A stretch of 64,000 nt of DNA from Prolixibacteraceae bacterium (GTDB lineage: Bacteria > Bacteroidota > Bacteroidia > Bacteroidales > Prolixibacteraceae). The stretch covers positions 186,001 through 250,000 of the forward strand of contig JAQUIJ010000001.1 of NCBI GenBank assembly GCA_028683385.1, written 5' to 3'. Positions 1,096 through 15,006 of the stretch are shown in pieces. The number at the start of each line of letters is the position of its first letter. Within the stretch, counting starts at the first letter, position 1. The position numbers were made by a program, and so were the translations under genes. The notes beneath the pieces were generated by a model that saw only the letters and a list, made by a program, of their open reading frames with translations, did not search any database and was not told where the DNA came from.

Positions 1096-2202
1096 TTATC
1101 TAACCGTAAAACTTGTTAATCCTTTCAAATAACCGGCATCGATACTTGCTCCCAATCCCGGAGTTTCAGGAACCGTAACCAAACCATTCAAACCATATTG
1201 AATTCCTCCTGAAACCGGATCTTCGCAGAACATCATTGGCGTATCGAAATCGCAAAACCTAACATTATCGCTGGTCAAAGCCAAATGAGCCGATGCGGTA
1301 AACCCAATCCGTGATTCGAGAAACCCACCGATTTGTAACTGCAAGTTAGCCTTTTCAGCCAAATTAATAATCTTTTGCGCCTTGAATATTCCGGATGATT
1401 TTCCCAGTTTGATGTTGAACGATGGCGCTGCATCCAAATCAATCAATCGCTTGGCATCGTGGTGATCGCAGCACGATTCATCGGCCATAACCATTACCGG
1501 GCTTGCTTTGCTGATTCGAGGTAATTCCATGTAGTTCCAACGCGGAATTGGCTCCTCGCAAAACTGGATGTTGTAACCGGCCAATTCGGTCAAAACATAA
1601 ATCGCCGAATCGACGTTCCACCCTTGATTGGCATCAAGCCTCAATGGAATGTCGCTTCCTATTTGTTTCCGAATAGCCTGAATTCGTTGAATATCTTTGT
1701 CCGGATCGTCACCCAGTTTCACCTTAATGACCTGAAACCCTCGCTCTTTAATTTCCAGTGCATCAGCCACCATTTGAGCAGGTTCATTCAAACTCACCGT
1801 ATAATCGGTCTTCAGGATTTTATTGTTTTTACCGCCCAGAAAAGCATACAAAGGCAACCCAGCCTGTTGCGCAGCAATGTCGTATAGTGCAATATCGAAA
1901 GCGCTTTTAATGCTCGAATTGGCAAAAATGGTTCGATCCATTGTTTCAGAACATTCTTCGATGTTAAGCGGATCTTTACCAATCAACGATTTGGCCAGAT
2001 AATTGGCAACAACGTAACAGGTTTCCATGCTTTCGCCGTTGATTGGCATAAATGGGCTACATTCACCAAAACCACTTAATCCTTCATCTGTTCGTACAAC
2101 AACTACCACATTCTCGGCATATTCAAACGATCCTAACGAAATAACAAAAGGCTTTTTAAGCTTGACCGGAAATTGATAAACTTCGATTTGAGTAATCAGC
2201 AT
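1096..2202 (-). CDS. Dipeptide epimerase (enolase superfamily)
   Basis: A 368-residue enzyme of the mandelate racemase/muconate lactonising branch of the enolase superfamily. The dipeptide epimerase signature is visible: catalytic KxK (Lys160, Lys162 in VIKVKLG), metal ligands Asp190 (LRLDANQGW), Glu216 (CEEPIP) and Asp241 (MADESC), the second catalytic Lys265 (NIKLGK), and the C-terminal DxD (Asp318, Asp320 in CDFDTP), which in characterised members binds the dipeptide amino group. The family epimerises L-Ala-D/L-Glu or other dipeptides, often in murein peptide recycling; exact specificity cannot be told here. Cytosolic. It lies 31 bases upstream of the DUF2007 gene on the same strand and may share its transcript. 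Confidence 0.88.
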   Translation of the reverse strand: MLITQIEVYQFPVKLKKPFVISLGSFEYAENVVVVVRTDEGLSGFGECSPFMPINGESMETCYVVANYLAKSLIGKDPLNIEECSETMDRTIFANSSIKSAFDIALYDIAAQQAGLPLYAFLGGKNNKILKTDYTVSLNEPAQMVADALEIKERGFQVIKVKLGDDPDKDIQRIQAIRKQIGSDIPLRLDANQGWNVDSAIYVLTELAGYNIQFCEEPIPRWNYMELPRISKASPVMVMADESCCDHHDAKRLIDLDAAPSFNIKLGKSSGIFKAQKIINLAEKANLQLQIGGFLESRIGFTASAHLALTSDNVRFCDFDTPMMFCEDPVSGGIQYGLNGLVTVPETPGLGASIDAGYLKGLTSFTVR

Positions 2203-2361
2203 TAGACTATTTTTAATAAAAATTGGTAATACAAGTGACCGGTAAATTTAAATTTAATTTCAGTATTGATGTTAAATATAGAAATTAAAATTCCGGCCTC
2301 ATTCTTTATAATGAAATGAAGACCGGAATCTGATTCTTTTGCACTGACAATCAAAAACTTA

Positions 2362-3666
2362 TCATTCCGAATACCAATTAATCTGCTGCGATGCACGCAT
2401 AATAATTGCCAGAATCACAAACAGTCCAATACTTCCGGCCAACAACGCATAATCCTGAAGCTGCAAAATGGTAAACAGGAAAATGTACAGGCCTGTTTGC
2501 AACAAAGTTATCCAAACTACAGAACGCCTGTCCTTCAGAATTGTATAGGAATACCACGAAATCAAGGAAGTAACAGCAACCGCCGAGATCAGATAAGCTA
2601 AATTAAATCCGGCTTGTTCGCTGATTGAAGTCAGCAATGCATAAAAGATGAGCAGCGCAAATGCCACCAATGAATATTGGAAGGGATGAATCCTGTTCTT
2701 GCTTTTCATCTCGATGAAAATAAAAATGATAAAATTGAGGGCTATGAACTGTATTGCATATTTCACCGAGCGCATAGCTTTCTGATAATGGTCAATAGGA
2801 ATCAGCAATTCAACACCTAACAGGGCTTCGTGAGTATTAAATTTTTTGTCGACCCATTGCTGTGGAAAATTGCGATTTAAATGAGTTACCATCCAGTTCG
2901 CAGTAAAGCCATTTGATGTAACATTTCGATCAGAAGGAAGAAAAACTCCGGTAAAACTTGGCTGCGCCCAGTCCGATTTCATTGAAACTTCCGAGGTTTT
3001 CCCTAAAGCCTCAACTGACAGATCTTCTGACCCGTTTAAAACCAGATCGATCTCAAAATTTAGCGACTGTTTCAAATCAATCGAATTGGCTTTAATCGTA
3101 ATTCCAGATTGGAAGATATCGGTATCAGCAACTCCGGGATCAACCTTGTATTTCTGACCATTGACAACCAATTCCGGCAAATTTTTGATCCCCCGCATAT
3201 CCGAAATTCCCAGAGTAAAGTAAGCTGCTTCCCAGTTAAACTGGGCATTTGGAATATCCAGTTGCGATACGTCGGGCTGAAGAAATAAGCCTTTCAGCTT
3301 GATACTTCCTTCATAAACTACCACTTCGTAAATGCCTCTTTTACGCTTTTCGGGAACCAGCGACCCATCTGTTTTTAGCGTTTCAGGCAAAAAATGAGCA
3401 ATTCCTTTTCGCTCTGTCATCCCCTGGTTTGTTCCGTTTTTTTCCTGAATTGTAAATGGCAAATTCAGCACCGGACCTGCGACAACCTGCTTCCCACCCC
3501 ATTGGGCATAGAGTTCGCTTTTAACTTTTTCGCTTAGCACAATCCGTTCGTTTATAATGTTCATAATTAAAAAGGACGGGATCAGAAGCAGAATCGCCAG
3601 GCCCGAAACGATAATCATCTTCACGCTGAAGCTGTTCATGAATTGTTGAATACCTTTTGTTTCCAT
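2362..3666 (-). CDS. creD: CreD-family inner membrane protein
   Basis: A 434-residue membrane protein matching the CreD (cell envelope integrity, colicin E2 tolerance) family. It has one N-terminal membrane helix (about residues 16-36), a large periplasmic region with the family-typical opening (ERIVLSEKVKSELYAQWGG and QVVAGPVLNLPF), and a cluster of hydrophobic helices from about residue 300 to the end. In enterobacteria creD is under CreBC control; in Bacteroidota it is commonly found, as here, next to a small winged-helix regulator (3720-4016, same strand, 53 bases upstream). Molecular role is not established. Confidence 0.88.
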   Translation of the reverse strand: METKGIQQFMNSFSVKMIIVSGLAILLLIPSFLIMNIINERIVLSEKVKSELYAQWGGKQVVAGPVLNLPFTIQEKNGTNQGMTERKGIAHFLPETLKTDGSLVPEKRKRGIYEVVVYEGSIKLKGLFLQPDVSQLDIPNAQFNWEAAYFTLGISDMRGIKNLPELVVNGQKYKVDPGVADTDIFQSGITIKANSIDLKQSLNFEIDLVLNGSEDLSVEALGKTSEVSMKSDWAQPSFTGVFLPSDRNVTSNGFTANWMVTHLNRNFPQQWVDKKFNTHEALLGVELLIPIDHYQKAMRSVKYAIQFIALNFIIFIFIEMKSKNRIHPFQYSLVAFALLIFYALLTSISEQAGFNLAYLISAVAVTSLISWYSYTILKDRRSVVWITLLQTGLYIFLFTILQLQDYALLAGSIGLFVILAIIMRASQQINWYSE

Positions 3667-3719
3667 AGTTTTGAATTTTTTAAAAGCACTTTGTATTTCA
3701 AAGCTTATAAATAAAAAAA

Positions 3720-4016
3720 TTATTGATTGCCTATAAGTTCTTCCAGTGCCACCAAGTGCTGACGAAACAAATCCTTTCCCTGCTCTGTTGCCCGGTAAGT
3801 TGTTCTGGGCTTCCGGCCAATAAATTGCTTCGACACAACAATGATCTCCTGTTGCTCCAGTCCTTTCAGATGACTGGCCAGATTTCCGTCGGTGAGTTCG
3901 AGTAGCTCCTTCAAGGCATTGAAATCGAGTGTCTCGTTCACCATAAGTGCCGACATGATTCCAAGCCTGATGCGGCTTTCAAATACTTTCTGCAGATTCG
4001 ATATCGGATTTTTCAC
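3720..4016 (-). CDS. Small winged-helix transcriptional regulator
   Basis: A 98-residue protein consisting of a single winged helix-turn-helix domain (HTH_34 / ArsR-MarR-like). The first helix region is RIRLGIMSALM, the recognition region is LTDGNLASHLKGLEQQ, and the wing is GRKPRTTYRATEQG. No sensor domain is attached. It precedes creD on the same strand and very likely controls creD and perhaps itself; the pair regulator-creD recurs in Bacteroidota (family knowledge). Signal unknown. Confidence 0.85.
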   Translation of the reverse strand: MKNPISNLQKVFESRIRLGIMSALMVNETLDFNALKELLELTDGNLASHLKGLEQQEIIVVSKQFIGRKPRTTYRATEQGKDLFRQHLVALEELIGNQ

Positions 4017-4056
4017 CAGATATTAATATTTACAATTTGTCTTTTTACTATTTACT

Positions 4057-4113
4057 GTTGCGGGTTACGGGATTCGGGTTGCGGGTTTGTCTGCGCAACC
4101 CGTAACACGCAAC
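4057..4113. repeat. Intergenic foldback (inverted repeat)
   Basis: Left arm GTTGCGGGTTACGGG (4057-4071) pairs with CCCGTAACACGCAAC (4099-4113) with one mismatch, and an inner pair CGGGTTGCG/CGCAACCCG (4075-4083, 4094-4102) nests inside. It lies between the membrane-protein gene and the winged-helix gene, both on the minus strand. It looks like a REP-type intergenic element; it could also act as a transcription barrier. Confidence 0.6.
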
Positions 4114-4156
4114 TCGAAACGCTTTGCCAACTGCGACTGACCACTGCGACTATTTG

Positions 4157-4795
4157 CTACCTTTCATGCCTGTAATACATCACGGTACCATAAACGATGT
4201 GCATCGCTCCAAAACCCCCAATCCAAAACAACAGTCCTTGACCAACGAAAATTCCAGCCAGAATACCAAGTAAAATTTCAGTCAGTCCCAAATAATGAAC
4301 CTCACCAAAAGTAAATTTTCCGGCGTTGACTAATGCCAATCCATAAAAGATAAGTGTTACCGAAGCGACCAACTCTACGTTATTTCTGAAGGCTAGAATA
4401 ATTGCAAAAATTCCACCTGAGACCAGAGGAATTAAAAGATGTCCAAGCAACCGGCGGGTCGAACTGGTCCAAAGTCTCTGATTGCTCTTTTGTGCCTTTC
4501 GGTATGAAAAATAAAAGGCTCCCAGGATTGCAGCAACTAACACAATCATCGCAACAATTCCCAAGCTAATACTTACCTGATTGAATGGTGAAGCGCCAAC
4601 ACTACACAGATATTCGTCGTAATGCACACTTCCCGATTCGAGAACAACAAACCAGGCAACTGCAGCACCTATTAAAGCGCATACTCCGGCAAAAATACCG
4701 GACAAACCGCTAAGCGACAAAAATTTGGATGACCGTTCCATGATTTCGCGGATGGCCTGAAGATCTTCTGTTGGATTAACTGAATTTGTTTTCAT
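4157..4795 (-). CDS. Multi-pass membrane protein, function unknown
   Basis: A 212-residue protein with a soluble N-terminus (about 25 residues, NPTEDLQAIREIMERSS) and six likely membrane helices: two early ones around GIFAGVCALIGAAVAWFVVL, one around ISLGIVAMIVLVAAILGAFY, and three in the C-terminal half. I do not recognise a named function. It is upstream of the winged-helix regulator and creD on the same strand, which suggests a common envelope-related operon. Confidence 0.7.
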   Translation of the reverse strand: MKTNSVNPTEDLQAIREIMERSSKFLSLSGLSGIFAGVCALIGAAVAWFVVLESGSVHYDEYLCSVGASPFNQVSISLGIVAMIVLVAAILGAFYFSYRKAQKSNQRLWTSSTRRLLGHLLIPLVSGGIFAIILAFRNNVELVASVTLIFYGLALVNAGKFTFGEVHYLGLTEILLGILAGIFVGQGLLFWIGGFGAMHIVYGTVMYYRHER

Positions 4796-5010: not shown

Positions 5011-6279
5011 TTACCCAATTTCTCTTGTAATCGCAATGGCAGCAATGGTTCCATCAGCAATAGCCGTGGTGATTTGCCTGTATTTTTTGCTGCCTACATC
5101 CCCAACAGCAAATACCCCTTCAATGTTTGTGCGCATGTCTTCATCTGTCTGAATATAACCCCACTTGTCAAGATTAAGCGCATCACCAAACATTTCCAGG
5201 TTTGGTTTCTGGCCGATAAAAACAAAGATTCCATCCGAAGTCAGCGTTTTCATTTCTTTGGTTTTCAGGTCTTCTACCTCAACAACCATTTTGTCTCCAA
5301 CCTTCTTAAAAGCGCGTGGTTCGTGCGAAAGCATAAACGAGATTTTTGGATTCTCAAACGCCTTTTCCTGGGCAGTTTTGTTTGCCTGCAGTTGGTCGAA
5401 CTGGTGAACGATCGTAATTTTCGAAGCAAATTTTGAGATGAAATCTGCCTCCTCAATGGCTGAATTTCCACCTCCAATAACTACCACTTCCTTATCGACA
5501 AAATATTTGGCATCGCAGGTAGCACAATACGAAATGCCATTCCCTTTAAATTCCAATTCACCCGGAATTCCGATCCGGTTAGGCGAAGTTCCGGTAGCGA
5601 TAATGATCCGTTTGGCACGAATGGTTTCCTGCCCATCAATTATAATTTCTTTCTTTTGCAAGTCGACATGAGTCACATCAACTGCCACTTTATATGTTGT
5701 TCCGCAGCGTTTGGTTTGCTCCGACATGTTGTGCGAAAGCATATATCCGGGCTGAGGGTCAATAAATCCGGGATAATTCGAAACCATGTGCGTGGTCGAA
5801 ACATTTCCTCCTGGCAAGGCAATATCTACCAAAACCGTATTGATTCTGGCCTGACACAGGTACAAGCCGGCTGTCAGTCCGCCAGGGCCAGCGCCCAGAA
5901 TGGCCACATCAACATTGGTGATTGTTGGTTCCTGCGTTTTCATAATTTCTGAAACGCGCTCTTTACCAAGCACATGTTTCAATTCGCGAACAATTTCGGA
6001 ACGTTTTACGCCCCCAGTCAATCGTGCGCTCACTTCTTCACCGTCCTGATAAAAAAGTAAAGTCGGCGATGATTTTACGGCCAACTGATCGGCCAGGTCG
6101 CGGTTTCCCTGACGGAAAATTTTCACAAACTTAATTTCTTTCCCGAAGAGTTTTTCCAGACTATGTAATTTGGGAGCAACGGCCTCACAGGGAGGACATT
6201 CGGTGGAATAAAAATCAACCAGCACATTTCCGCCAGCCAACACTTCTTTTTCAAAATCTGATGCGATTATTTCTTTCAT
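5011..6279 (-). CDS. Thioredoxin-thioredoxin reductase fusion
   Basis: A 422-residue two-domain redox protein. Residues 1-about 108 are a thioredoxin domain with active site CPPC (Cys28-Cys31). Residues about 120-422 are a low-molecular-weight NADPH:disulfide oxidoreductase with FAD loop GAGPGGLTAG (129-138), redox CATC (Cys252-Cys255), NADPH loop GGGNSA (269-274) and the C-terminal FAD motif VFAVGDVG. The reductase should therefore reduce its own tethered thioredoxin. Domain order is Trx first, TrxR second, the reverse of the TrxR-Trx fusion described in Mycobacterium leprae. It is the last gene of a minus-strand set with a radical SAM enzyme and a Cys-containing mini-peptide, so it may supply reducing power for that set. 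Confidence 0.9.
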   Translation of the reverse strand: MKEIIASDFEKEVLAGGNVLVDFYSTECPPCEAVAPKLHSLEKLFGKEIKFVKIFRQGNRDLADQLAVKSSPTLLFYQDGEEVSARLTGGVKRSEIVRELKHVLGKERVSEIMKTQEPTITNVDVAILGAGPGGLTAGLYLCQARINTVLVDIALPGGNVSTTHMVSNYPGFIDPQPGYMLSHNMSEQTKRCGTTYKVAVDVTHVDLQKKEIIIDGQETIRAKRIIIATGTSPNRIGIPGELEFKGNGISYCATCDAKYFVDKEVVVIGGGNSAIEEADFISKFASKITIVHQFDQLQANKTAQEKAFENPKISFMLSHEPRAFKKVGDKMVVEVEDLKTKEMKTLTSDGIFVFIGQKPNLEMFGDALNLDKWGYIQTDEDMRTNIEGVFAVGDVGSKKYRQITTAIADGTIAAIAITREIG

Positions 6280-6352
6280 GACTTATGGTTTTATTTTGAA
6301 TCTATTACGAAAAGGAAATCATTTGGGTTGAAATCCTGTCGTCTATTTTAGC

Positions 6353-6913
6353 TTAATTTTTCTGACTATCAGTAATTTCACGCAACGGAGCATGGTTGAA
6401 AACCCGATCTTTCACCACTAAAGTGGTACAATCGGCTTTCACCTCACGCTGAAACAAAATATCGTGTCCCAAACAAAGCCCGATCATCACCACCAAATCA
6501 ACATTTTCGTTGTTCAATTGCCGAGCCTGACCAATCGGGTTGCATGACACCGTACAAAAGGCACTTTCAGGATTAATTTCGTTTTGCGGAATTCCGCCAA
6601 CAGTGCACGAAACAGCACGAACATTCAACTTGCTTTCTCTTAAAATTTCAACAATTTGTGTTACCTGTTTTTCCATTCCGTAGCAATAAGCCAAACCTAT
6701 TCGCTTGTAGTTCATTTTTTGTGCAAAAGCAATGGTTTCCTGAAGCCGCGACAATGTTCCGGCTCGTCCAAAATCGACTAAATCGGCTGCTGCCTGAACG
6801 ATTGCAGATTCTTCGCCATATTTCTGAATCACCTCATCGCGCCCGAAAGAAGTCGCCGGGCAAGTCTCTGCATTCCGGCATTTTTTATCGTAGGTGCAAT
6901 TGGTGCAGTCCAT
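6353..6913 (-). CDS. DUF1847 cysteine-rich, probably metal-binding protein
   Basis: A 186-residue protein with an N-terminal Cys cluster (Cys3, Cys6, Cys12, Cys18 in MDCTNCTYDKKC...ETCP) and further conserved cysteines later (YCYG, VSCTVGG, CTVSCNP, GLCLGHD). This matches DUF1847, described as a metal-binding family. Function is not known. Its start lies 3 bases after the radical SAM stop codon, so the two are tightly coupled, and the Trx-TrxR gene follows 73 bases on. The abundance of cysteines fits a metal- or thiol-centred pathway, but the actual ligand is unknown. Confidence 0.82.
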   Translation of the reverse strand: MDCTNCTYDKKCRNAETCPATSFGRDEVIQKYGEESAIVQAAADLVDFGRAGTLSRLQETIAFAQKMNYKRIGLAYCYGMEKQVTQIVEILRESKLNVRAVSCTVGGIPQNEINPESAFCTVSCNPIGQARQLNNENVDLVVMIGLCLGHDILFQREVKADCTTLVVKDRVFNHAPLREITDSQKN

Positions 6914-6916
6914 GGT

Positions 6917-8218
6917 TTAATCGTTAAAATAATGACCAATTCCCAGTTCCAGCAATTCAGTTACCGGGCGACAATCGTGGCTGTTCAGCAATCCGTTGTA
7001 GTTTTTAGCCATCGATGCACAACCGCCTCCACAAATCAAACTCATGTTGCAACTTTGGCATTTCGGGATCGATAAAATATCGCGTTCCTGCCATTCTTCA
7101 ACAGTTTCCGTATTTTTCCTGACTTCAGGATAAAAAGTACCGAGACTTTCACCCTGCTTTCCAACAGTGGCGGTGCATGCATATACATTTCCGGTGAAAT
7201 CGAACGCCCATTCGGTTTTGGTGCCGGTGCAGGCATCAAAAAGAGGAGCTGGCATTTCGCCCTGTTCGAACAAAAATTTTGAGACCGAAAAGGCAGGTTT
7301 GTGAAACTCGCTGATGTGGGGGAATTCCTTCAGCAAATTGTACAAATCCTGATACAATTCGAGCCTCGAATAAAGTTTCTTCTGGTTGGCCTGACATTCG
7401 TGCAGTTCATAGTTTCTTCCCAATTGCGTTTTAAACAATGGAGACGCCGTCCAACCTTTATCGATAGCAAACTGAGCCAAATCAGGTAGATTATTGATAT
7501 TTTGTTTGTCAACCACCATACGTAGATTGACCGCAATATTATTCTCAATCAAAAGGTCGACTCCACGAACAATACGATCGAAAGTCGGATCTCCACCTTT
7601 CAGATAACGGCGCTTGTTATGAATTTCGCTGGTTCCGTCGAGTGTTACCTGAATTTCGCGGATAATTCCCTTTTTCAAGATTGGAATGTATTCTTCCAAA
7701 TGATATCCATTCGTCACCGCTGCAATTTCAAGCTGGTGTTCGGCAGCTTTTTGAATAATATATTCGATGTTTTCCTTGTGGCGCGGAGCATTCATGAATG
7801 GTTCGCCACCAAAAATGGTGATGTATTTTCGTCTTCCTGAAAACTCTTTCAGGATGTAGTCAAAAAACGAATCGGTAACTTCTTTCGACAGTGCAACCGG
7901 CAAGGCTTCGTAGCCAGCCTGATAGCAGTACGAACAATCGAAATTGCACGAGTAGTTGGTCACAAAAAAGATCTGAACTTCGTCCTTTTCGCGATCATCC
8001 AAAAATTTCAGGTATTTTTCGCGAAACAATCTTTTTTCCTGAATCGGATCAACAAGGTAGCCGTTTTCGATCAATTCAGGATTGTCTTCGGAAGCACTAT
8101 TAAGTTGCTCGAAAGTTGGCTGATCTAAAATATCGGCCTGACCTGACAAAGCATTTACGACAAACCAATCGTCAGAATCATTAATTTTTGAAGTTATGTT
8201 GTATTTGGAAAGCTGCAT
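6917..8218 (-). CDS. Radical SAM/SPASM enzyme, putative peptide maturase
   Basis: A 433-residue protein. The radical SAM 4Fe-4S motif CxxxCxxC is Cys91-Cys95-Cys98 (CNFDCSYC), followed by GGEP (137-140). The C-terminal SPASM region holds Cys330, Cys348, Cys387, Cys390, Cys396, Cys400 and Cys416, enough for two auxiliary clusters as in anaerobic sulfatase maturases and RiPP-modifying enzymes. The first 80 residues (opening MQLSKYN, then WFVVNALSG) look like the N-terminal domain seen in many peptide maturases. A 31-residue Cys-containing ORF lies 112 bases upstream on the same strand, a good candidate substrate. Downstream DUF1847 is 3 bases away. The modification chemistry cannot be deduced. 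Confidence 0.87.
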   Translation of the reverse strand: MQLSKYNITSKINDSDDWFVVNALSGQADILDQPTFEQLNSASEDNPELIENGYLVDPIQEKRLFREKYLKFLDDREKDEVQIFFVTNYSCNFDCSYCYQAGYEALPVALSKEVTDSFFDYILKEFSGRRKYITIFGGEPFMNAPRHKENIEYIIQKAAEHQLEIAAVTNGYHLEEYIPILKKGIIREIQVTLDGTSEIHNKRRYLKGGDPTFDRIVRGVDLLIENNIAVNLRMVVDKQNINNLPDLAQFAIDKGWTASPLFKTQLGRNYELHECQANQKKLYSRLELYQDLYNLLKEFPHISEFHKPAFSVSKFLFEQGEMPAPLFDACTGTKTEWAFDFTGNVYACTATVGKQGESLGTFYPEVRKNTETVEEWQERDILSIPKCQSCNMSLICGGGCASMAKNYNGLLNSHDCRPVTELLELGIGHYFND

Positions 8219-8330
8219 GGAAATGAGATTTTGGATTAACGATTTCAGATTAACGATTATTGATTTTCAGACTTCCGATACTTCGTTAATCATCAATCTC
8301 TAATCGTTAATCGTCAATCGAAGACGCCGC

Positions 8331-8426
8331 CTAATCGTGGCATCCGGCAATAATCTGAGATTGTTTAGCACAACATTGTGCCTGTTTAATCTGACCTTTT
8401 TTTACTTTTTTTACTAAACTCTTCAT
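8331..8426 (-). CDS. 31-residue Cys-containing peptide, candidate RiPP precursor
   Basis: This short ORF starts ATG at 8426 and ends TAG at 8331. The N-terminal half is basic (MKSLVKKVKKGQIKQ) and the C-terminal half holds the cysteines: Cys18-Cys19 (AQCCAK) and Cys29 near the end (AGCHD). A basic leader followed by a short Cys-containing core is the layout expected for a precursor of a radical SAM-modified peptide. It sits directly between an ArsM-like methyltransferase and a radical SAM/SPASM gene on the same strand. A promoter-like box lies 35 bases upstream. I do not recognise a named precursor family. It could be a chance ORF, but the context makes that less likely. Confidence 0.6.
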   Translation of the reverse strand: MKSLVKKVKKGQIKQAQCCAKQSQIIAGCHD

Positions 8427-8460
8427 AAAACTGATTTTGGTGTTGATTAAACTATCGGAA

Positions 8461-8468
8461 TAAAGGTA
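8461..8468 (-). promoter_or_regulatory. Possible -7 box for the mini-peptide/radical SAM transcript
   Basis: On the minus strand the sequence reads TACCTTTA, one mismatch from the Bacteroidota -7 consensus TAnnTTTG, with a TTG 22 bases upstream as a possible -33 element. It would give a leader of roughly 25-30 bases before the mini-peptide ATG. Weak match; geometry is the main support. Confidence 0.3.
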
Positions 8469-8557
8469 TTCAAAACGAACGAAACTTCATCAATTAAACT
8501 TCAACATAATGACTACCTTCAAACTTTCATTGAAAAAATTGCGATCCGGACGACTCC

Positions 8558-8577
8558 AGACGCAAGATCGTGCGTCT
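8558..8577. repeat. Small inverted repeat after the methyltransferase gene
   Basis: AGACGCA (8558-8564) and TGCGTCT (8571-8577) flank a 6-base loop, 8 bases beyond the stop of the ArsM-like gene on the minus strand. The motif resembles the dispersed 'GTAGAGACGCA...TGCGTCTCTAC' repeat type often seen between genes in Bacteroidota and may also weaken read-through into the mini-peptide gene. Confidence 0.45.
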
Positions 8578-8584
8578 CTACCAG

Positions 8585-9229
8585 TTACCCGCAACAGCTA
8601 AACTCGTCTTTTTCGGCGGTAATGGTAAAACTGGATACGTGTATTTTCCCTTTCGGATAAGGCTGACTCTCTTCCAATACTTTCACATAACGAAATCCGG
8701 CACCCTTGATAATATTCAGGTATTCTGAGCGGGTAACAGACCCAGCCCAGCATTCAGCTACAGCTTCAGGATCGTTGGCGTATTCTTCAGGAACAGGTTC
8801 GCTCGAATAAATATCGCTGATTACAAAGCGCCCGCCATTTTTTAGCAATCGGTAAATTTCTGCCCATACTTTGGCCTTATTGCTGACATGGTTAAGGGTG
8901 CAGTTCGAAATAATCAGGTGAGCAGTTTCATCTTCCAGCGGAATTTGCTCCAAATCTGCCTGAATAAATTTCACATTCTCAACGCCCATTTTAGCAGCAG
9001 TTGAAGTCGCCTTGCGGATCATCTCCTCCGTAACGTCAATCCCATAAACGAAGCCACCTTCTCCAACCTCTTCGGCCAGGCGCAAAACATCGGTTCCGCG
9101 CCCACTTCCCAAATCGATGCAAATCTCGTTCAATTTTGCATCACTTTTATCGACTGCTCCTCCACACGATAAGCAACAGGTATCGTTCGCCAGTGCAGTA
9201 TATCTTCCAGTTATTTCAATTGTATTCAT
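8585..9229 (-). CDS. ArsM-like SAM-dependent methyltransferase
   Basis: A 214-residue methyltransferase from the ATG at 9229 (MNTIEITG). An upstream in-frame ATG at 9262 would add 11 residues, but a strong -7 box (9249-9256) lies inside that extension, so the shorter start is preferred. Motif I is DLGSGRGTDVLRLA, the acidic residue is in GIDVTEEM, and motif IV is ISNCTLNH. The overall pattern follows arsenite methyltransferase (ArsM). Thiols are prominent: CCLSCGG near the N-terminus and a C-terminal FSCCG tail. Known ArsM proteins bind As(III) through conserved cysteines, so a metalloid or thiol substrate is plausible; methylation of the neighbouring peptide is an alternative. It is the first gene of a minus-strand set ending at 5011. 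Confidence 0.8.
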   Translation of the reverse strand: MNTIEITGRYTALANDTCCLSCGGAVDKSDAKLNEICIDLGSGRGTDVLRLAEEVGEGGFVYGIDVTEEMIRKATSTAAKMGVENVKFIQADLEQIPLEDETAHLIISNCTLNHVSNKAKVWAEIYRLLKNGGRFVISDIYSSEPVPEEYANDPEAVAECWAGSVTRSEYLNIIKGAGFRYVKVLEESQPYPKGKIHVSSFTITAEKDEFSCCG

Positions 9230-9651: not shown

Positions 9652-10248
9652 ATGATATACGAAGCGCTACAGATTATCAGCGAACAATTGGACAATTACC
9701 TTTCTTCTCAAGGCCTGAGCAATCTGGTTAAACTTGAAAATATTGCCCTTCTGGATTCATCTTCAGAAAATGCAGCTAATGTGAATGGGAAAGTTGTTCT
9801 TACCCTTTTAAATCTGGAAGAAGATTCAACACAAAAAAACCTTCCCAATTTCAAGGTTAGAAATGGAGTAACCGAATATAAAAATCCTCCGGTTCACCTG
9901 AATCTTTTCCTGTTAATCAGCGCAAATTGCGACACCTACGACAAATCGCTTCGCTGTATTTCGAAAACCATCCAGTTTTTTCAAGGAAAAAAGGTATTTA
10001 CCTCAACCAATACGGTTTACAACCGCACGAACGTCGCTTTTGATGTCGTGGACCAATTCAGATTTAATCTGGAATTGTATACGCTCAGCCTTGAACAGCT
10101 AAACTATGTATGGGGAACTCTGGGCGGAAGGCAACTTCCTTCTGTCATATATAAGATTCAACTTATCGAAATTGAGCAAGACATTAAATTGGCCACATCA
10201 GGTGTAATTACGCATATCGGCGGGGACTTAAACGACATAAACCAATGA
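9652..10248 (+). CDS. eCIS cap-type protein, DUF4255 (Pvc16/Afp16-like)
   Basis: A 198-residue protein of the DUF4255 (Pvc16 N-terminal domain) family. Recognisable parts are the opening IYEALQIISEQLDNYL, a middle segment with HLNLFLLISANCDTYDKSLRCIS, and a hydrophobic-aromatic C-terminal half ending YKIQLIEIEQD. In Photorhabdus PVC and Serratia Afp, the homologue terminates the tube and sheath at the distal end. It is the first gene of the plus-strand operon and overlaps the next gene by 4 bases (10245-10248), indicating coupling. Subcellular role: assembly factor in the cytosol, then particle component. Confidence 0.85.
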   Translation: MIYEALQIISEQLDNYLSSQGLSNLVKLENIALLDSSSENAANVNGKVVLTLLNLEEDSTQKNLPNFKVRNGVTEYKNPPVHLNLFLLISANCDTYDKSLRCISKTIQFFQGKKVFTSTNTVYNRTNVAFDVVDQFRFNLELYTLSLEQLNYVWGTLGGRQLPSVIYKIQLIEIEQDIKLATSGVITHIGGDLNDINQ

Positions 10249-11120
10249 GCTTTTCCATTCAATATAAACCGCTTTATAAGGTGGATGTGCTTCACCTGTT
10301 TTTCCTGAACAACGGGCTGAAGACCTTTTTTTCGATGAATGCTGATGAAGCCACCAAACAATTGGAGGGCTACGACCTGAAATCACTTTTAAGCATCTCC
10401 CCTACTCTTGAAACTCAGCAAAAGTTAAAAGGACACCATTTGGTTTTCAGAACGCTGAATACCGGTTTTGTAGTCTGGGCAAAAGTGAGCAACGAAAACA
10501 ACACCGTACCATTTATTCCTCTTCCCGACGAGTTGAGTTTAACTTTTCTCATGCAGATCAACGATGCCTATTTCTACAACTATACGAACCTCGCTTTCAG
10601 CAACCTTGGCAAAACCAATTATTTTTCAAACCGAAGGCTATCGACCGAAAGTCCGGCATTTCCGCTGATCAACAAGTCGGGAGACCATTTTAACATCAAT
10701 GAAACTTTTGCCCTAACTCCTGAAAGTGCATCCGCTGAAATGAAAAACCTCAGTACCCCGGAAAAAGCCAACCTGTCTGGACTGATCCGCTTGTACATGA
10801 AAGCTGACAATACTTCGCTCAACATCGTAAATCCAGATGGAACAATTGCCAATCCGGCGAAAAATTTTGAACTGGTTTTTGACAACCGGAAAACAATTTG
10901 GCGATACATTTTCAGGAAAGACCCCAAGGTAAAAAACAAGGATGATGTTAAAATGGAAGGAGCCGACCCCACGATTCTGATTTCCAAATCGGAGCAGCCA
11001 CTCACTCAAAAAGGATTTATTTCAATTGAACTTGGAGGAAAAGATCTTCCCAATCCGGGCTCTCAGCAACTAAAACCTGATACTATCAATTCAAAATACT
11101 ATTCTGAAATATACATGTAA
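10245..11120 (+). CDS. eCIS-associated protein of unknown function, possible cap partner
   Basis: A 291-residue protein I cannot place in a named family. It has no signal peptide or membrane helix. The N-terminal 130 residues (opening MSFSIQYKPLYKVDVLHLFF) look like a folded beta-rich domain, followed by a linker with AEMKNLSTPEKANL and a C-terminal part with the motif RYIFRKDP. Its ATG overlaps the stop of the DUF4255 cap gene and it is followed 18 bases later by the sheath, so a role at the cap or tube end is a reasonable guess. The structure of the Algoriphagus AlgoCIS showed a cap adaptor that simpler systems lack; this could be an equivalent (inference only). Confidence 0.65.
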   Translation: MSFSIQYKPLYKVDVLHLFFLNNGLKTFFSMNADEATKQLEGYDLKSLLSISPTLETQQKLKGHHLVFRTLNTGFVVWAKVSNENNTVPFIPLPDELSLTFLMQINDAYFYNYTNLAFSNLGKTNYFSNRRLSTESPAFPLINKSGDHFNINETFALTPESASAEMKNLSTPEKANLSGLIRLYMKADNTSLNIVNPDGTIANPAKNFELVFDNRKTIWRYIFRKDPKVKNKDDVKMEGADPTILISKSEQPLTQKGFISIELGGKDLPNPGSQQLKPDTINSKYYSEIYM

Positions 11121-11138
11121 AACTAAAAACACAAGATT

Positions 11139-13229
11139 ATGGCAACAGCTTACAAGACACCGGGTGTTTACGTCGAGGAAATCGCAAAATTCCCCCCTTC
11201 CGTAGCACAAGTTGAGACTGCTATACCTGCTTTTATTGGTTATACCGAAAAGGCAACCAATAAGATCAAGGGAGACCTAAAAGGCGTCCCGACACGGATT
11301 ACGTCCATGTTGGAATACGAAACATGGTTTGGTTTTGCCAAGCCCGAAAAAACGATAAGCGTTACGATCAACGACACATTGGTGAACGGAACCACCAACC
11401 GCGCCATTGTGGTCGATCAGCCGTCGGCACGTGAGCCTTTCCTGATGTATTATTCCATGCAAATGTACTTTGCCAACGGAGGCGGGCCTTGCTACATTGT
11501 TTCAGTTGGCCGCTACGGTTCTGATCTTGACGCTGCTGATACACCGGTTACCTCAATCAACAATTTCGACGATTTCAAAAAAGGACTTACCGCAGTTGAA
11601 AAAGTGGACGAAGTGACCTTGATTGTTTTTCCGGATGCCACTGCCTTGTCAACGGCTTCGGAGTTTTACGGATTATACAATGATGCGCTGAACCAATGTG
11701 CCAAACTGCAGGACCGGTTCACCATTATCGATACGTTGAGTTACGATTCAACGAGTCCGACAGATACAAATATTGAAGATCTGAGAAACTTCGTTCTTTC
11801 CGATAAAGACATCATAAAATATGGTGCGGCTTACTATCCATTCCTGAACACCATTCTCGATTACCAGTATAATCCGAAAGAAATTACCATTGAACATTAT
11901 TCGTACAGCGCGGACGCCTACGAAACCATCAAGAAAAATCTGGAAGCCATTGAAAACCTGGGAACCGGAATGCCTGCCACGGTGAAAAAACTGGTCGATC
12001 TCACAACCACACCTGGAAATATTGCCGGTGACGTCAGTAATGTGCTGTTTAAAATGTACGACAGCGCCGCCGGATTCGACCTCGGAGGTGTTTTTGCAAC
12101 CGATGATGCCAAGAAAACAGCTTTTCTCGGGTTGGTTGAAACATTGCTTGCATCTCTGGATAAACTGGCCGACTTTAAAGCCAAGCTAAATGCCGAAGCA
12201 AACGCAGCAGCTACGACTATTCAGGATGAAAATCCGGTAATCGCAACCAGTATCAATGCCGCTCTGGCCATCTTCAATGCCGATTTTACGGGCGCTGGAA
12301 AAATTGATGAAGTAACCGCCAACCTGCACGATTTGTATTCCAAAATGCAGGCTGCCAATACCGACGTCAAGGTTAAAAATCTCCTGAATGTGAATGCCGT
12401 AAACTTCGATGCAGAACTGAAGAAGCTTGAAACCTACACTCCGCTGAATACACAGGCCGGAATTGTTTCTACTGTTGATGCGTTTGCAAACGTTGGCGCC
12501 AACTTAACTGCCGTTGGTATTGAAATTAAGAAAGTCGAAGGCAAAGACAAAAACAACGGTGCGCTGAACGGACGAAATTTGAGTGATGTGGCCGCCGTCG
12601 ATAATTCTACCTACAACAAAATATTAACTGCAATCGGAAATCTTCCGCTTGAGTTGCCACCTAGTTCGGCAATTGCCGGAGTTTATGCGAGGGTCGATAA
12701 AGACAGAGGTGTGTGGAAAGCTCCGGCAAATGTCGGACTGAACTATGTGACCAACCTTTCAGTAAAAATTACCAACGAAAGCCAGGAAAGCCTGAATGTG
12801 GATACCACCGCCGGAAAGTCGATCAATGCCATTCGGGCATTTACCGGCAAGGGAATTCTGGTCTGGGGTGCTCGTACTCTCGCCGGAAACGACAACGAAT
12901 GGCGATATGTTCCGGTTCGCAGGTTCTTTAATATGGTAGAAGAATCGGTAAAAAAAGCGACCTCCCAGTTTGTGTTCGAACCAAACGATGCCAATACCTG
13001 GGTGAAAGTGCGGGCTATGATTGAAAATTTCCTGATCCTTCAGTGGAGAGCTGGAGCATTGGCAGGCGCCAAACCCGAACAGGCATTCTATGTCAGGGTT
13101 GGATTAGGCCAAACCATGACCGCCGAAGACATCCTCAACGGATACATGCACATCGAAATCGGAATGGCAGTTGTTCGTCCGGCTGAATTCATTGTGCTGA
13201 AGTTCTCACATAAATTACAGGAAGCATAA
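11139..13229 (+). CDS. Contractile sheath protein with large insertion
   Basis: A 696-residue tail sheath protein. The N-terminal YKTPGVYVEEI and the C-terminal core (PPSSAIAGVYARVD at 507-520, RGVWKAPANVG, then FNMVEESVKKA) are canonical for phage, T6SS-like and eCIS sheaths. Between AAYYPFL (230-236) and PPSSA (507) canonical sheaths have a short link; here about 260 residues are inserted, rich in Ala/Lys/Asp and probably helical. The insertion should face the particle surface. It is the only sheath gene in the locus, unlike PVC and Afp which have three. Contraction of the sheath drives tube expulsion. Confidence 0.95.
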   Translation: MATAYKTPGVYVEEIAKFPPSVAQVETAIPAFIGYTEKATNKIKGDLKGVPTRITSMLEYETWFGFAKPEKTISVTINDTLVNGTTNRAIVVDQPSAREPFLMYYSMQMYFANGGGPCYIVSVGRYGSDLDAADTPVTSINNFDDFKKGLTAVEKVDEVTLIVFPDATALSTASEFYGLYNDALNQCAKLQDRFTIIDTLSYDSTSPTDTNIEDLRNFVLSDKDIIKYGAAYYPFLNTILDYQYNPKEITIEHYSYSADAYETIKKNLEAIENLGTGMPATVKKLVDLTTTPGNIAGDVSNVLFKMYDSAAGFDLGGVFATDDAKKTAFLGLVETLLASLDKLADFKAKLNAEANAAATTIQDENPVIATSINAALAIFNADFTGAGKIDEVTANLHDLYSKMQAANTDVKVKNLLNVNAVNFDAELKKLETYTPLNTQAGIVSTVDAFANVGANLTAVGIEIKKVEGKDKNNGALNGRNLSDVAAVDNSTYNKILTAIGNLPLELPPSSAIAGVYARVDKDRGVWKAPANVGLNYVTNLSVKITNESQESLNVDTTAGKSINAIRAFTGKGILVWGARTLAGNDNEWRYVPVRRFFNMVEESVKKATSQFVFEPNDANTWVKVRAMIENFLILQWRAGALAGAKPEQAFYVRVGLGQTMTAEDILNGYMHIEIGMAVVRPAEFIVLKFSHKLQEA

Positions 13230-13256
13230 TCAGTATAAATCTTAAAAAATATAATC

Positions 13257-13691
13257 ATGGCTACAAATTACCCATTGGTCAAGTTCCATTTTCAGGTTGA
13301 ATGGGGTGGAACAAAAATAGGATTTACCGAGGTTTCCGGATTGGATGTGGAAACTGAAATCGTTGAATACCGCGACGGAGCAAGTCCGGAGTATTCGAAA
13401 ATAAAAATGCCGGGCATGCAGAAATTCAGCAACATTACGCTGAAACGCGGCACATTCAAGAGTGACAATGAATATTTCAAATGGTGGAATACTGTTAAAC
13501 TCAACACCATCGAGCGCCGCGACATTACCATCAGTCTGCTCAACGAAGAGCATGCACCGGTGATTACCTGGAAGGTTAAAAATGCCTGGCCAAGCAAGGT
13601 CCAGTCCACCGACCTGAAAGCTGAAGGCAACGAAGTGGCAATCGAATCGATGGAAATTGTGCACGAAGGCTTAACCATTCAAAATGAATAA
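13257..13691 (+). CDS. Inner tube protein (gp19/Pvc1-like)
   Basis: A 144-residue tail tube protein of the T4 gp19/Hcp superfamily. The usual pattern is present: NYPLVKFHFQVEW at the start, GFTEVSGLDVETEIVEYR, KFSNITLKRGTF and a C-terminal IESMEIVHEGL. It should form the hexameric rings of the tube. It lies 27 bases after the sheath and 2 bases before a second, divergent tube gene, the standard eCIS order. The good separation in sequence between the two suggests one bulk tube protein and one initiator at the baseplate. Confidence 0.93.
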   Translation: MATNYPLVKFHFQVEWGGTKIGFTEVSGLDVETEIVEYRDGASPEYSKIKMPGMQKFSNITLKRGTFKSDNEYFKWWNTVKLNTIERRDITISLLNEEHAPVITWKVKNAWPSKVQSTDLKAEGNEVAIESMEIVHEGLTIQNE

Positions 13692-13693
13692 CG

Positions 13694-14125
13694 ATGAGCA
13701 ATTACTATCCTCCTTTGGGATTTCACTTTAAAGTTGAATTTGACAATCTGAGCGGTGAATACCAGTTTCAGTCGGTAACGGGCTTAAGCGTTGAGCTCGA
13801 AACTGAGCAAATTGCCGAAGGAGGAGAAAATCGGTTCAAGCACAAATTACCTGTTTCAACCCGCTATCCGAACCTGGTTTTAAAACGCGGAATCAGGGTT
13901 GATTCGGCACTGACCAAATGGTGCCGGGAGGCTCTCGAAGATTTCGACATCAAGCCAACCAACATCACCATCAGTCTGCTGAACGAGGATCACGAGCCGC
14001 TGATGACCTGGAATGTGGTACACGCCTACCCGATTAAATGGTCGGTTTCAGAGTTTAATGCCGAGAAAAGTCAACTGGCAATAGAATCGATTGAACTAGC
14101 TTACAACTATTATAACATTCAGTAA
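13694..14125 (+). CDS. Second tube protein (tube initiator-like, gp19 family)
   Basis: A 143-residue paralogue of the preceding tube protein, with the same architecture: NYYPPLGFHFKVEF, QSVTGLSVELETEQ, NLVLKRGI and AIESIELAYN. Differences from the first copy are concentrated in loops. In PVC, Afp and AlgoCIS, one gp19-like paralogue (Pvc5/Afp5-like) connects tube to baseplate. Start is 2 bases after the previous stop and the mini-gene for DUF5908 follows 1 base after its own stop. Confidence 0.9.
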   Translation: MSNYYPPLGFHFKVEFDNLSGEYQFQSVTGLSVELETEQIAEGGENRFKHKLPVSTRYPNLVLKRGIRVDSALTKWCREALEDFDIKPTNITISLLNEDHEPLMTWNVVHAYPIKWSVSEFNAEKSQLAIESIELAYNYYNIQ

Positions 14126-14126
14126 T

Positions 14127-14285
14127 ATGCCTGTCGAGATCAAAGAATTGATTGTCAAAATTACGGTGTCCGACAAACCGCAATCTTCCAGTTCTGAAAC
14201 AAATAGTCAGGAAGGGAAAGAAGTAATCATCGCGGCTTGCGTGGAACAGGTTCTGGAAATTTTATCGAAAAAACAGGAACGGTAA
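14127..14285 (+). CDS. DUF5908-like eCIS mini-protein
   Basis: A 52-residue ORF that starts MPVEIKELIVKITVSD and ends LEILSKKQER. The opening M-P-V/I-E-I-K/R-E-L is the hallmark of DUF5908, small proteins found in eCIS loci of Bacteroidota and others at the same place (Pvc6/Afp6 position). It fills exactly the space between the second tube gene (stop ends 14125) and the LysM adaptor (start 14287), with 1-base gaps on both sides, which is strong context support. Its molecular role is not known; it is probably a small tube or baseplate assembly factor. Confidence 0.8.
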   Translation: MPVEIKELIVKITVSDKPQSSSSETNSQEGKEVIIAACVEQVLEILSKKQER

Positions 14286-14286
14286 T

Positions 14287-15003
14287 ATGAGCGGCGAACT
14301 GATTAAACTTAGGATAAAAGCCTATAAGGATGCGCAATTTTCGGATGAAGTTGCCGACGGTGAATTCAAATCGTTGCTGAACCCTGAAAAATATTCATTC
14401 AAATACAAAATTGAATCGAACGATAATCAGGCGTCAGGAACAAGCAGGTCTGCACCAAAATTCAATAAGATTCTGCCTGAAGACCTGAACCTTGAATTTG
14501 TGTTCGACCGCACCGGAGTGATTACCGATTACAGTGCGCCCGGGGCTTCAGCCGATAATACATTCAGGGACGAAGGCGGCGGAATCATCGATGACATCGA
14601 CAAATTCAAAAAAGTAGTTTTCGACTACAACGGCGACGAGCATAAGCCTAATTACCTTGTCATTTCGTGGGGAACGCTCCTTTTTAAAGGAACACTCACC
14701 GAAATGGATATCACGTACAAGCTTTTCAAGTCTGACGGAACTCCGTTGCGTGCAACGGCCAATGCCAAGTTCAAGGGATTTGTGGAAGAAAATCTTCGGG
14801 TTGCGCTGGAAAACAACAGTTCTCCTGATTTAACGCACATCCGGACGGTGAAAGAAGGCGACAAACTGCCGCTGATGACGTTCCGAATTTACGGCGATTC
14901 GAGGTATTACCTTGAAGTTGCAAAGGTCAACAACATTACCAATTTCAGAAAGTTAACGGTGGGTCAGAAAATTTTCTTTCCGCCCATCCAAAAAACATCG
15001 TAG
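14287..15003 (+). CDS. eCIS baseplate adaptor with LysM-like domain (Pvc7/Afp7-like)
   Basis: A 238-residue protein. The N-terminal about 170 residues form the CIS tube-adaptor domain (LKIKAYKD-type opening, LNPEKYSFKYKIES, then LNLEFVFDRTG, a frequent pattern in gp53/T4-like hub adaptors). The C-terminal about 55 residues form a LysM-like fold (HIRTVKEGDKLPLMTFRIYG then ITNFRKLTVGQKIFFPP). In the family this protein links the tube to the VgrG-like hub. It is followed 3 bases later by the hub gene. Confidence 0.88.
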   Translation: MSGELIKLRIKAYKDAQFSDEVADGEFKSLLNPEKYSFKYKIESNDNQASGTSRSAPKFNKILPEDLNLEFVFDRTGVITDYSAPGASADNTFRDEGGGIIDDIDKFKKVVFDYNGDEHKPNYLVISWGTLLFKGTLTEMDITYKLFKSDGTPLRATANAKFKGFVEENLRVALENNSSPDLTHIRTVKEGDKLPLMTFRIYGDSRYYLEVAKVNNITNFRKLTVGQKIFFPPIQKTS

Positions 15004-15006
15004 CTC

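Follow-up and report, generated by a model that had tools for sequence, protein, structure and literature searches.

A conserved three-cysteine peptide encoded with a radical SAM/SPASM enzyme, an ArsM-like methyltransferase and a thioredoxin reductase fusion: a probable new RiPP cassette in Prolixibacteraceae and other bacteria

In a stretch of 64,000 nucleotides from a Prolixibacteraceae bacterium (assembly GCA_028683385.1, contig JAQUIJ010000001.1, positions 186,001 to 250,000; the whole stretch is called the window here), a minus-strand cassette encodes a small peptide with three cysteines together with a radical S-adenosylmethionine (SAM) enzyme of the SPASM type, an ArsM-like SAM methyltransferase and a fusion of thioredoxin with thioredoxin reductase (Trx-TrxR; Table 1). 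These four genes form a conserved cassette, in which the core of the peptide and the catalytic and metalloid-site residues of the enzymes are retained; the genes co-occur in the same genomes, and one genome shows joint decay, of the core along with the maturase. That this is a cassette for a ribosomally synthesized and post-translationally modified peptide (RiPP) I consider nearly certain. The reading that I favour as a whole, and that on balance appears probable, is a new intracellular RiPP system for thiol or metalloid chemistry, with modification, metalloid and function as I infer them below. No description of such a cassette was found in the literature searched (open-licence PMC text, mostly titles and the starts of abstracts), and judged from that literature it is undescribed; its novelty lies in the peptide, the combination of genes and the likely function, built from known kinds of enzyme. 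A sequence-only reading of the window had proposed five minus-strand genes here, and their coordinates stand as it gave them, with the domain calls borne out by Pfam and NCBIfam.

Table 1. The cassette in the window: genes and sequence elements, with positions counted from the first letter of the window
Feature	Positions	Strand	Remarks
ArsM-like SAM methyltransferase	8585-9229	minus	214 aa, short form
Putative precursor peptide MKSLVKKVKKGQIKQAQCCAKQSQIIAGCHD	8331-8426	minus	31 aa, three Cys
Conserved peptide core AQCCAKQSQIIAGCHD	8334-8381	minus	nine positions invariant in 120/120 cores
Stem-loop between peptide and radical SAM genes	8227-8319	minus	-33.5 kcal/mol, z -4.4
Radical SAM/SPASM enzyme, putative peptide maturase	6917-8218	minus	433 aa; CNFDCSYC cluster motif, seven SPASM cysteines
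DUF1847 protein, read as accessory	6353-6913	minus	186 aa; 3 bases behind radical SAM gene
Trx-TrxR fusion	5011-6279	minus	422 aa; thioredoxin CPPC and NADPH thioredoxin reductase CATC

The peptide ends in AQCCAKxSxxVAGCHD. Ala-16, Gln-15, Cys-14, Cys-13, Lys-11, Gly-4, Cys-3, His-2 and Asp-1 (numbered from the C-terminus) are identical in all 120 cores collected, an invariance that is partly by construction, because the extraction pattern required AQCC[AST]K and GCHD and so already demanded part of the invariant residues. Looser core patterns added only scattered chance open reading frames (ORFs). The N-terminus is conserved too, with MKSL or MKSV in 91 of the 120 peptides, and the middle of the leader is variable and rich in Lys and Arg. 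As many as 112 DNA forms encode the 120 cores, the codons varying around fixed amino acids, and pairwise comparison among the 18 closest loci gives 388 synonymous and 0 nonsynonymous codon differences; judged by these codons, the peptide core is under strong purifying selection. The core was found in genome samples built around loci of Bacteroidota, Spirochaetota, Myxococcota and Fibrobacterota, with radical SAM proteins down to 37% identity. A chance ORF is ruled out by this conservation and by the recurrence of the peptide in the loci. Membership of a known peptide family in Pfam or NCBIfam was likewise rejected, as Pfam gave only a sub-threshold match of the window's peptide to DUF7072 (13.2 vs 27 bits) and NCBIfam gave no match for the four versions compared, namely the window's and three others.

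A scan for the radical SAM protein with one genome per species yielded 68 loci, all of them in metagenome-assembled genomes (MAGs) and mainly from Bacteroidota, with six Spirochaetota, one Fibrobacteres and one Myxococcota among the titles. The peptide core is present in 61 of these loci, the methyltransferase in 59 and the fusion in 67. The sequence-only reading was open to contradiction by radical SAM homologues without the short ORF and by cysteines that vary, and neither was encountered: in six of the seven loci without the peptide the contig starts within the radical SAM gene, in the seventh (L051) the 5' end of that gene is replaced by other sequence, and the three core cysteines do not vary in the 120 cores. 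A wider table comprises 130 loci, from which L001-L032, L101-L112 and L122-L152 are excluded as short, duplicate or distant. Methyltransferase and radical SAM gene occur together in 112 of them, and the other 18 stand outside that count, either because of a contig start or a lost 5' end (L051, L055, L066, L089, L095, L096 and L098-L100) or because they are split or decayed (L191, L192, L195-L199, L201 and L202); L235-L241 and L247-L250 are counted apart from the table. The core peptide is found in 112 of these 112 loci and the fusion in 106, the six without it (L097, L165, L169, L180, L200 and L204) reaching a contig end. Two of the phylum samples, with centre genomes L093 and L061, contributed 36 loci from their 24 and 33 radical SAM genomes; radical SAM genomes were sampled in part, not all being taken among 13 of 20 weaker-scoring ones (under 1e-150) and 16 more strong ones.

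Within the host family (140 genomes), the radical SAM gene occurs in 44 genomes, the methyltransferase in 45 and the fusion in 42. The methyltransferase is present in 43 of the 44 genomes with the radical SAM gene vs 2 of the 96 without it (G086 and G090; Fisher p 2e-32), and the fusion in 42 of 44 vs 0 of 96 (p 9e-34), p values that overstate the association because the genomes of the family are related. Where a genome with the radical SAM gene misses a partner (G007, G023 and G094), the radical SAM match is itself partial, and G086 (64% complete) has the methyltransferase and an intact peptide with no radical SAM match. In G090 (92% complete; locus L202) the methyltransferase is kept, the radical SAM gene and the fusion were not found, and a leader-like MNSLIKKK... 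lies downstream of the methyltransferase with the core absent, one natural case of a core missing alongside its maturase. One genus of the family carries the methyltransferase with the peptide, and the radical SAM gene with the fusion, on separate contigs or 5-18 kb apart, still in the same genome, and in a divergent Myxococcota-centred group (L170-L178, radical SAM proteins 38-40% identical) the peptide adjoins the fusion with the radical SAM gene in either orientation. The earlier suggestion of one pathway holds up for the methyltransferase, the peptide, the radical SAM enzyme and the fusion, even where order or linkage has changed, and fails for the DUF1847 gene, which is accessory by its occurrence.

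The Spirochaetota-centred sample (247 genomes) has the radical SAM gene in 33 genomes, of which 32 also show a match to the methyltransferase profile, located on the contig of the radical SAM gene. The profile also matches 17 of the 214 genomes without the radical SAM gene, six of which were fetched: G951 and G916 show the peptide plus the start of the radical SAM gene at a contig edge, in G934 the contig ends within the methyltransferase next to the fusion, G765 has a truncated fusion with neither peptide nor radical SAM gene found in the DNA fetched, and G854 and G762 have a methyltransferase-like gene on its own. The remaining 11 matches begin at profile position 7-19, lie mostly in longer frames and probably represent ordinary ArsM. 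In the Fibrobacterota-centred sample the radical SAM gene is present in 5 of 167 genomes, and the centre locus L063 and L247 carry all four genes. Three weaker radical SAM matches from a phylum sample (L110-L112, 27-31% identity) were set aside as other families, the four partners not being nearby, and a plasmid location was discarded on a single unrelated match (26.9%).

The stem-loop that separates the peptide gene of the window from its radical SAM gene is built from GATTAACGATT inverted repeats, of which four of the seven window matches (at most one mismatch) fall in 8227-8319. A stable fold 3' of the peptide gene, tested against 40 shuffles per locus on a stretch that extends 60 bases into the radical SAM frame, has z < -2 in 78 of 100 loci (median -3.6), and the sequences differ between loci. 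Such a fold after the peptide gene may resemble those of operons that produce more precursor than enzyme. It could also be taken to mean that the short ORF is a regulatory leader, or a small metal-sensing protein that shares the operon, and not a modified peptide, since some attenuators have a stable fold after a short ORF. However, the gene changes its place and strand between loci while the protein sequence is kept, and what is conserved is the C-terminal amino-acid core and not the codons, so that this explanation seems barely credible.

The radical SAM enzyme scores 77.1 bits with Pfam Radical_SAM, its CxxxCxxC cysteines C91, C95 and C98 are conserved, and the seven SPASM cysteines that had been noted from the sequence (C330, C348, C387, C390, C396, C400 and C416) are all present and conserved in the homologues aligned at those columns (119/119 or 120/120, in an alignment without L050, which has one in-frame stop). 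Both L050 and L022, from Prolixibacteraceae-type genomes, have radical SAM homologues with one in-frame stop codon each. The nearest relatives of the window's protein are 91-94% identical (MAGs: Prolixibacteraceae, Bacteroidota), the window's own genome being 5.9 Mb. The enzyme falls below the cut-off of all 25 NCBIfam families listed (of 78 matched). The best score among the matches listed is that of NF038107 CefB (Cys-every-fifth; 152.8 vs 600 bits), which aligns over residues 1-433, but the window's peptide is without the Cys-every-fifth spacing. Ranthipeptide or SCIFF-type maturases (CteB; TIGR03974, NF047865 PapB, TIGR04334 Clo7bot) share the layout of radical SAM and SPASM domains and an adjacent short Cys-bearing precursor, but the window's enzyme reaches only 99.3 of 425 bits for TIGR03974, 118.2 of 340 for PapB and 113.7 of 600 for Clo7bot, and three divergent members are also below the cut-offs of CefB, PapB, SCIFF and Clo7bot. 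To my knowledge, this core motif, a methyltransferase partner and a reductase partner are not part of the SCIFF, PapB and Clo7bot systems. The nearest solved sequence is 5wgg (E 3.8e-19), which I take to be CteB. CteB has been described as a ranthisynthase (PMC8326336).

The profile of the methyltransferase aligns to CmArsM (4fr0, E 4.6e-30) with C22, C110 and C160 on C72, C174 and C224, and alignment to 4kw7 places this As(III) triad as well. In CmArsM, C72, C174 and C224 are reported to bind arsenic (PMC3877260). The triad cysteines are kept in 114/114, 118/118 and 117/118 of the 118 methyltransferase sequences, the exception (L046) having been read through a frame break. The Cys pairs at the termini of the protein are not fully kept, those of the N-terminus in 96/114 each and the C-terminal pair likewise incompletely. 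A His after the second triad site (SNCxxNH) is present in 115 of 117 methyltransferases and is Leu in two other ArsM-type proteins. Its five best matches among solved structures are all arsenic methyltransferases, and the protein belongs to the fold family of ArsM (NF008823, CmArsM) and shares its three cysteines of the As(III) site; it differs in being about 207-214 aa long, aligned to positions 62-234 of the 272 of the model, and in its linkage with peptide and reductase genes. It lies below the NF008823 cut-off (183.8 vs 263 bits), as do two divergent members (159.5 and 185.4). In the fusion, the cysteine pairs CxPC (CPPC in the window) and CATC are kept in 106/106 sequences. It scores below the cut-offs of both TIGR01292 (316.5 bits, cut-off 343.45) and AhpF (204.6 bits over residues 21-416, cut-off 502.9), and resembles AhpF and thioredoxin reductase in having a Trx domain fused ahead of TrxR, whereas it has a single Trx domain and its partner is the cassette, not AhpC.

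On the reading that I favour, the radical SAM/SPASM enzyme would bind the Lys-rich leader (MK[ST][LV]...) and put a radical-made bond into AQCCAKxSxxVAGCHD, a thioether formed by a single core cysteine being the likeliest. At its N-terminus such an enzyme would be expected to have an RRE (PqqD-like) domain. The mature peptide would remain in the cell, since the recurring neighbours include no recognised gene for an exporter or a peptidase, and would offer soft ligands there, namely the remaining Cys thiols, His and Asp. The methyltransferase would methylate a metalloid in the trivalent state, with arsenite as the likeliest, which the peptide either binds or hands on, and the Trx-TrxR fusion would re-reduce the thiols of the peptide and of the methyltransferase using NADPH, with the DUF1847 protein as a possible, optional metal- or redox-binding helper. 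An intracellular role of some kind in thiol or metalloid chemistry is what I would expect, a metalloid role being plausible, and arsenic as the element is a fair candidate that I would stop short of expecting.

The neighbouring genes were compared among the 130 loci, where 27 non-core neighbour clusters occur in at least 4 loci and none spans the set. For ten of these clusters a representative was run against Pfam, and the rest were judged by eye; neither an ABC transporter nor a peptidase or immunity gene was recognised among them. This argues against an antimicrobial or signalling RiPP that is exported, as does a core that is near-invariant across phyla and not diversifying; in spite of the layout of leader and core and the stem-loop after the precursor, which are common in RiPP operons, I hold an exported product to be very improbable.

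A number of observations weigh against the intracellular metalloid reading, besides the partly built-in invariance of the core. In the Fibrobacterota-centred sample, the single radical SAM gene of L250, alone within 11 kb, counts against one pathway (its neighbours, by eye, are a MarR-like gene and a gene like that of a small membrane protein near other cassettes), and L248 and L249 carry methyltransferase (partly read in L249), peptide and radical SAM genes, but the fusion is missing from the DNA fetched; L055 and L066 have the peptide, the radical SAM gene and the fusion and no methyltransferase before the contig start. Acr3 occurs near 2 of the 130 loci (L168 and L057) and ArsC only near L168, the queries being the ArsR, ArsC and Acr3 of L168, with ArsB and ArsP not searched. 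Within the host family Acr3 is independent of the cassette (40/44 vs 83/96, p 0.58). Finally, the recurring neighbours of Bacteroidales cassettes, often thioredoxins, rhodaneses, DUF302 or a disulfide reductase that bears three rhodanese domains, are sulfur and redox genes.

These neighbours favour another explanation, that the peptide is the precursor of a redox cofactor, made by the radical SAM enzyme, S- or N-methylated by the methyltransferase with the peptide as methyl acceptor, and cycled by the fusion as a dithiol or thioether electron carrier, in likeness to mycofactocin or PQQ. The conservation of the core, above that expected of bacteriocins, would suit such a cofactor, as would the absence of a recognised exporter among the recurring neighbours and, in the divergent group centred on Myxococcota, a peptide gene that is the immediate neighbour of the fusion. 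Yet the methyltransferase retains all three As(III)-site cysteines and has arsenic methyltransferases as its five best solved relatives, and no single dehydrogenase or oxidase that could use the cofactor spans the loci; I regard a redox cofactor as a possibility of the lesser kind, rather doubtful and worth keeping in mind.

The residues of the triad could also belong to a plain arsenic-resistance module, in which ArsM is served by Trx-TrxR as reductant and the peptide is an unmodified, Cys-rich chelator of arsenite, the radical SAM enzyme acting elsewhere or making a minor change. The CC...C of the peptide recalls the metallochaperone site of ArsD, and in L168 (G743) arsR, a canonical arsM, acr3 and arsC (1665-4444; Acr3 437 bits, cut-off 283) are convergent with the cassette they adjoin. 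In that locus the Trx-TrxR gene beside the radical SAM gene is truncated, and a second copy begins near 10459. A linked ars operon was rejected as the general context of the cassette, as, by similarity to the proteins of L168, the full operon is found in L168 only and Acr3 in L057, 3 kb from the cassette, of the 130 loci; in the window's genome Acr3 is on a different contig. A plain resistance module is quite unlikely for this scarcity of Acr3, for a radical SAM gene as constant as the other partners and with peptide maturases as its nearest relatives, and for the loss of the core where the radical SAM gene was not found (one case).

Pairs of a radical SAM enzyme and ArsM are known to make organoarsenicals, namely arsinothricin (arsQML) and arsenosugars (ArsS/ArsM), and ArsL is reported to have only three conserved cysteines, its product being a small amino acid (PMC8552651). 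The cassette resembles these pathways in the pairing and differs in that its radical SAM enzyme is of the SPASM type and comes with a ribosomal peptide. Because such pairs make organoarsenicals (PMC8552651), a ribosomal arsenopeptide is thinkable, in which the radical SAM enzyme would either bond arsenic or another metalloid to carbon or trap it in the Cys-Cys...Gly-Cys-His-Asp core, with methylation of the metalloid by the ArsM-like enzyme; I consider such a product unlikely.

The fifth gene of the cassette encodes a DUF1847 protein (PF08901; 127.8 bits vs a gathering threshold of 25). Cys77, Cys103, Cys124, Cys147 and His150 are invariant in 24 aligned homologues (L077, whose range crosses a stop, is left out), and the predicted model is a Rossmann-like fold. 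The tight coupling to the radical SAM gene that had been proposed is true of the window and not of the loci at large, as DUF1847 is present in 37 of the 112 loci with methyltransferase and radical SAM gene. This occurrence rules it out as a core partner, though it is associated with the cassette in the host family (28/44 cassette genomes vs 8/96 others), and on these distributions I read it as a probable accessory. Outside the cassette it was seen by eye beside flavin reductase-like and thioredoxin-like genes. In L154 (2447-3696), a second ArsM of the arsinothricin type (NF040538 328 bits, cut-off 500) and an opposite-strand DUF1847 gene lie directly before the cassette.

Further genes around the cassette were recorded. 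In the window, genes for proteins that by eye are sheath-, tube-, LysM- and spike-like, candidates for an injection system of the contractile phage-tail-like kind, occupy 9652-16749 on the plus strand, divergent from the cassette, and genes of this type also flank it in several relatives. A gene for a winged-helix regulator lies near 12 cassettes of the Prolixibacteraceae type, and one for a MarR-type regulator near five other loci (e.g. L161:134-571); in several genomes such a gene stands ahead of the cassette or the radical SAM gene, in L250 (6231-6641) as judged by eye. In 30 loci, many of them Bacteroidales (e.g. L077:4280-4717), there is a gene for a small protein with an IS1595-type zinc ribbon, of which one representative was scanned.

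Few RiPPs have strongly conserved precursors, and the known ones, PQQ and mycofactocin, proved to be cofactors. Here, across phyla and mainly in uncultured bacteria, a conserved peptide is accompanied by a methyltransferase of the arsenite family and a disulfide reductase, both dedicated to it. If the peptide were indeed an arsenopeptide, a conserved peptide that contains a metalloid would serve bacteria of several phyla as cofactor or carrier. If the favoured reading is true, one peptide, one maturase, one methyltransferase and one reductase would make up a small, defined system, which could provide a link between RiPP chemistry and metalloid biology.

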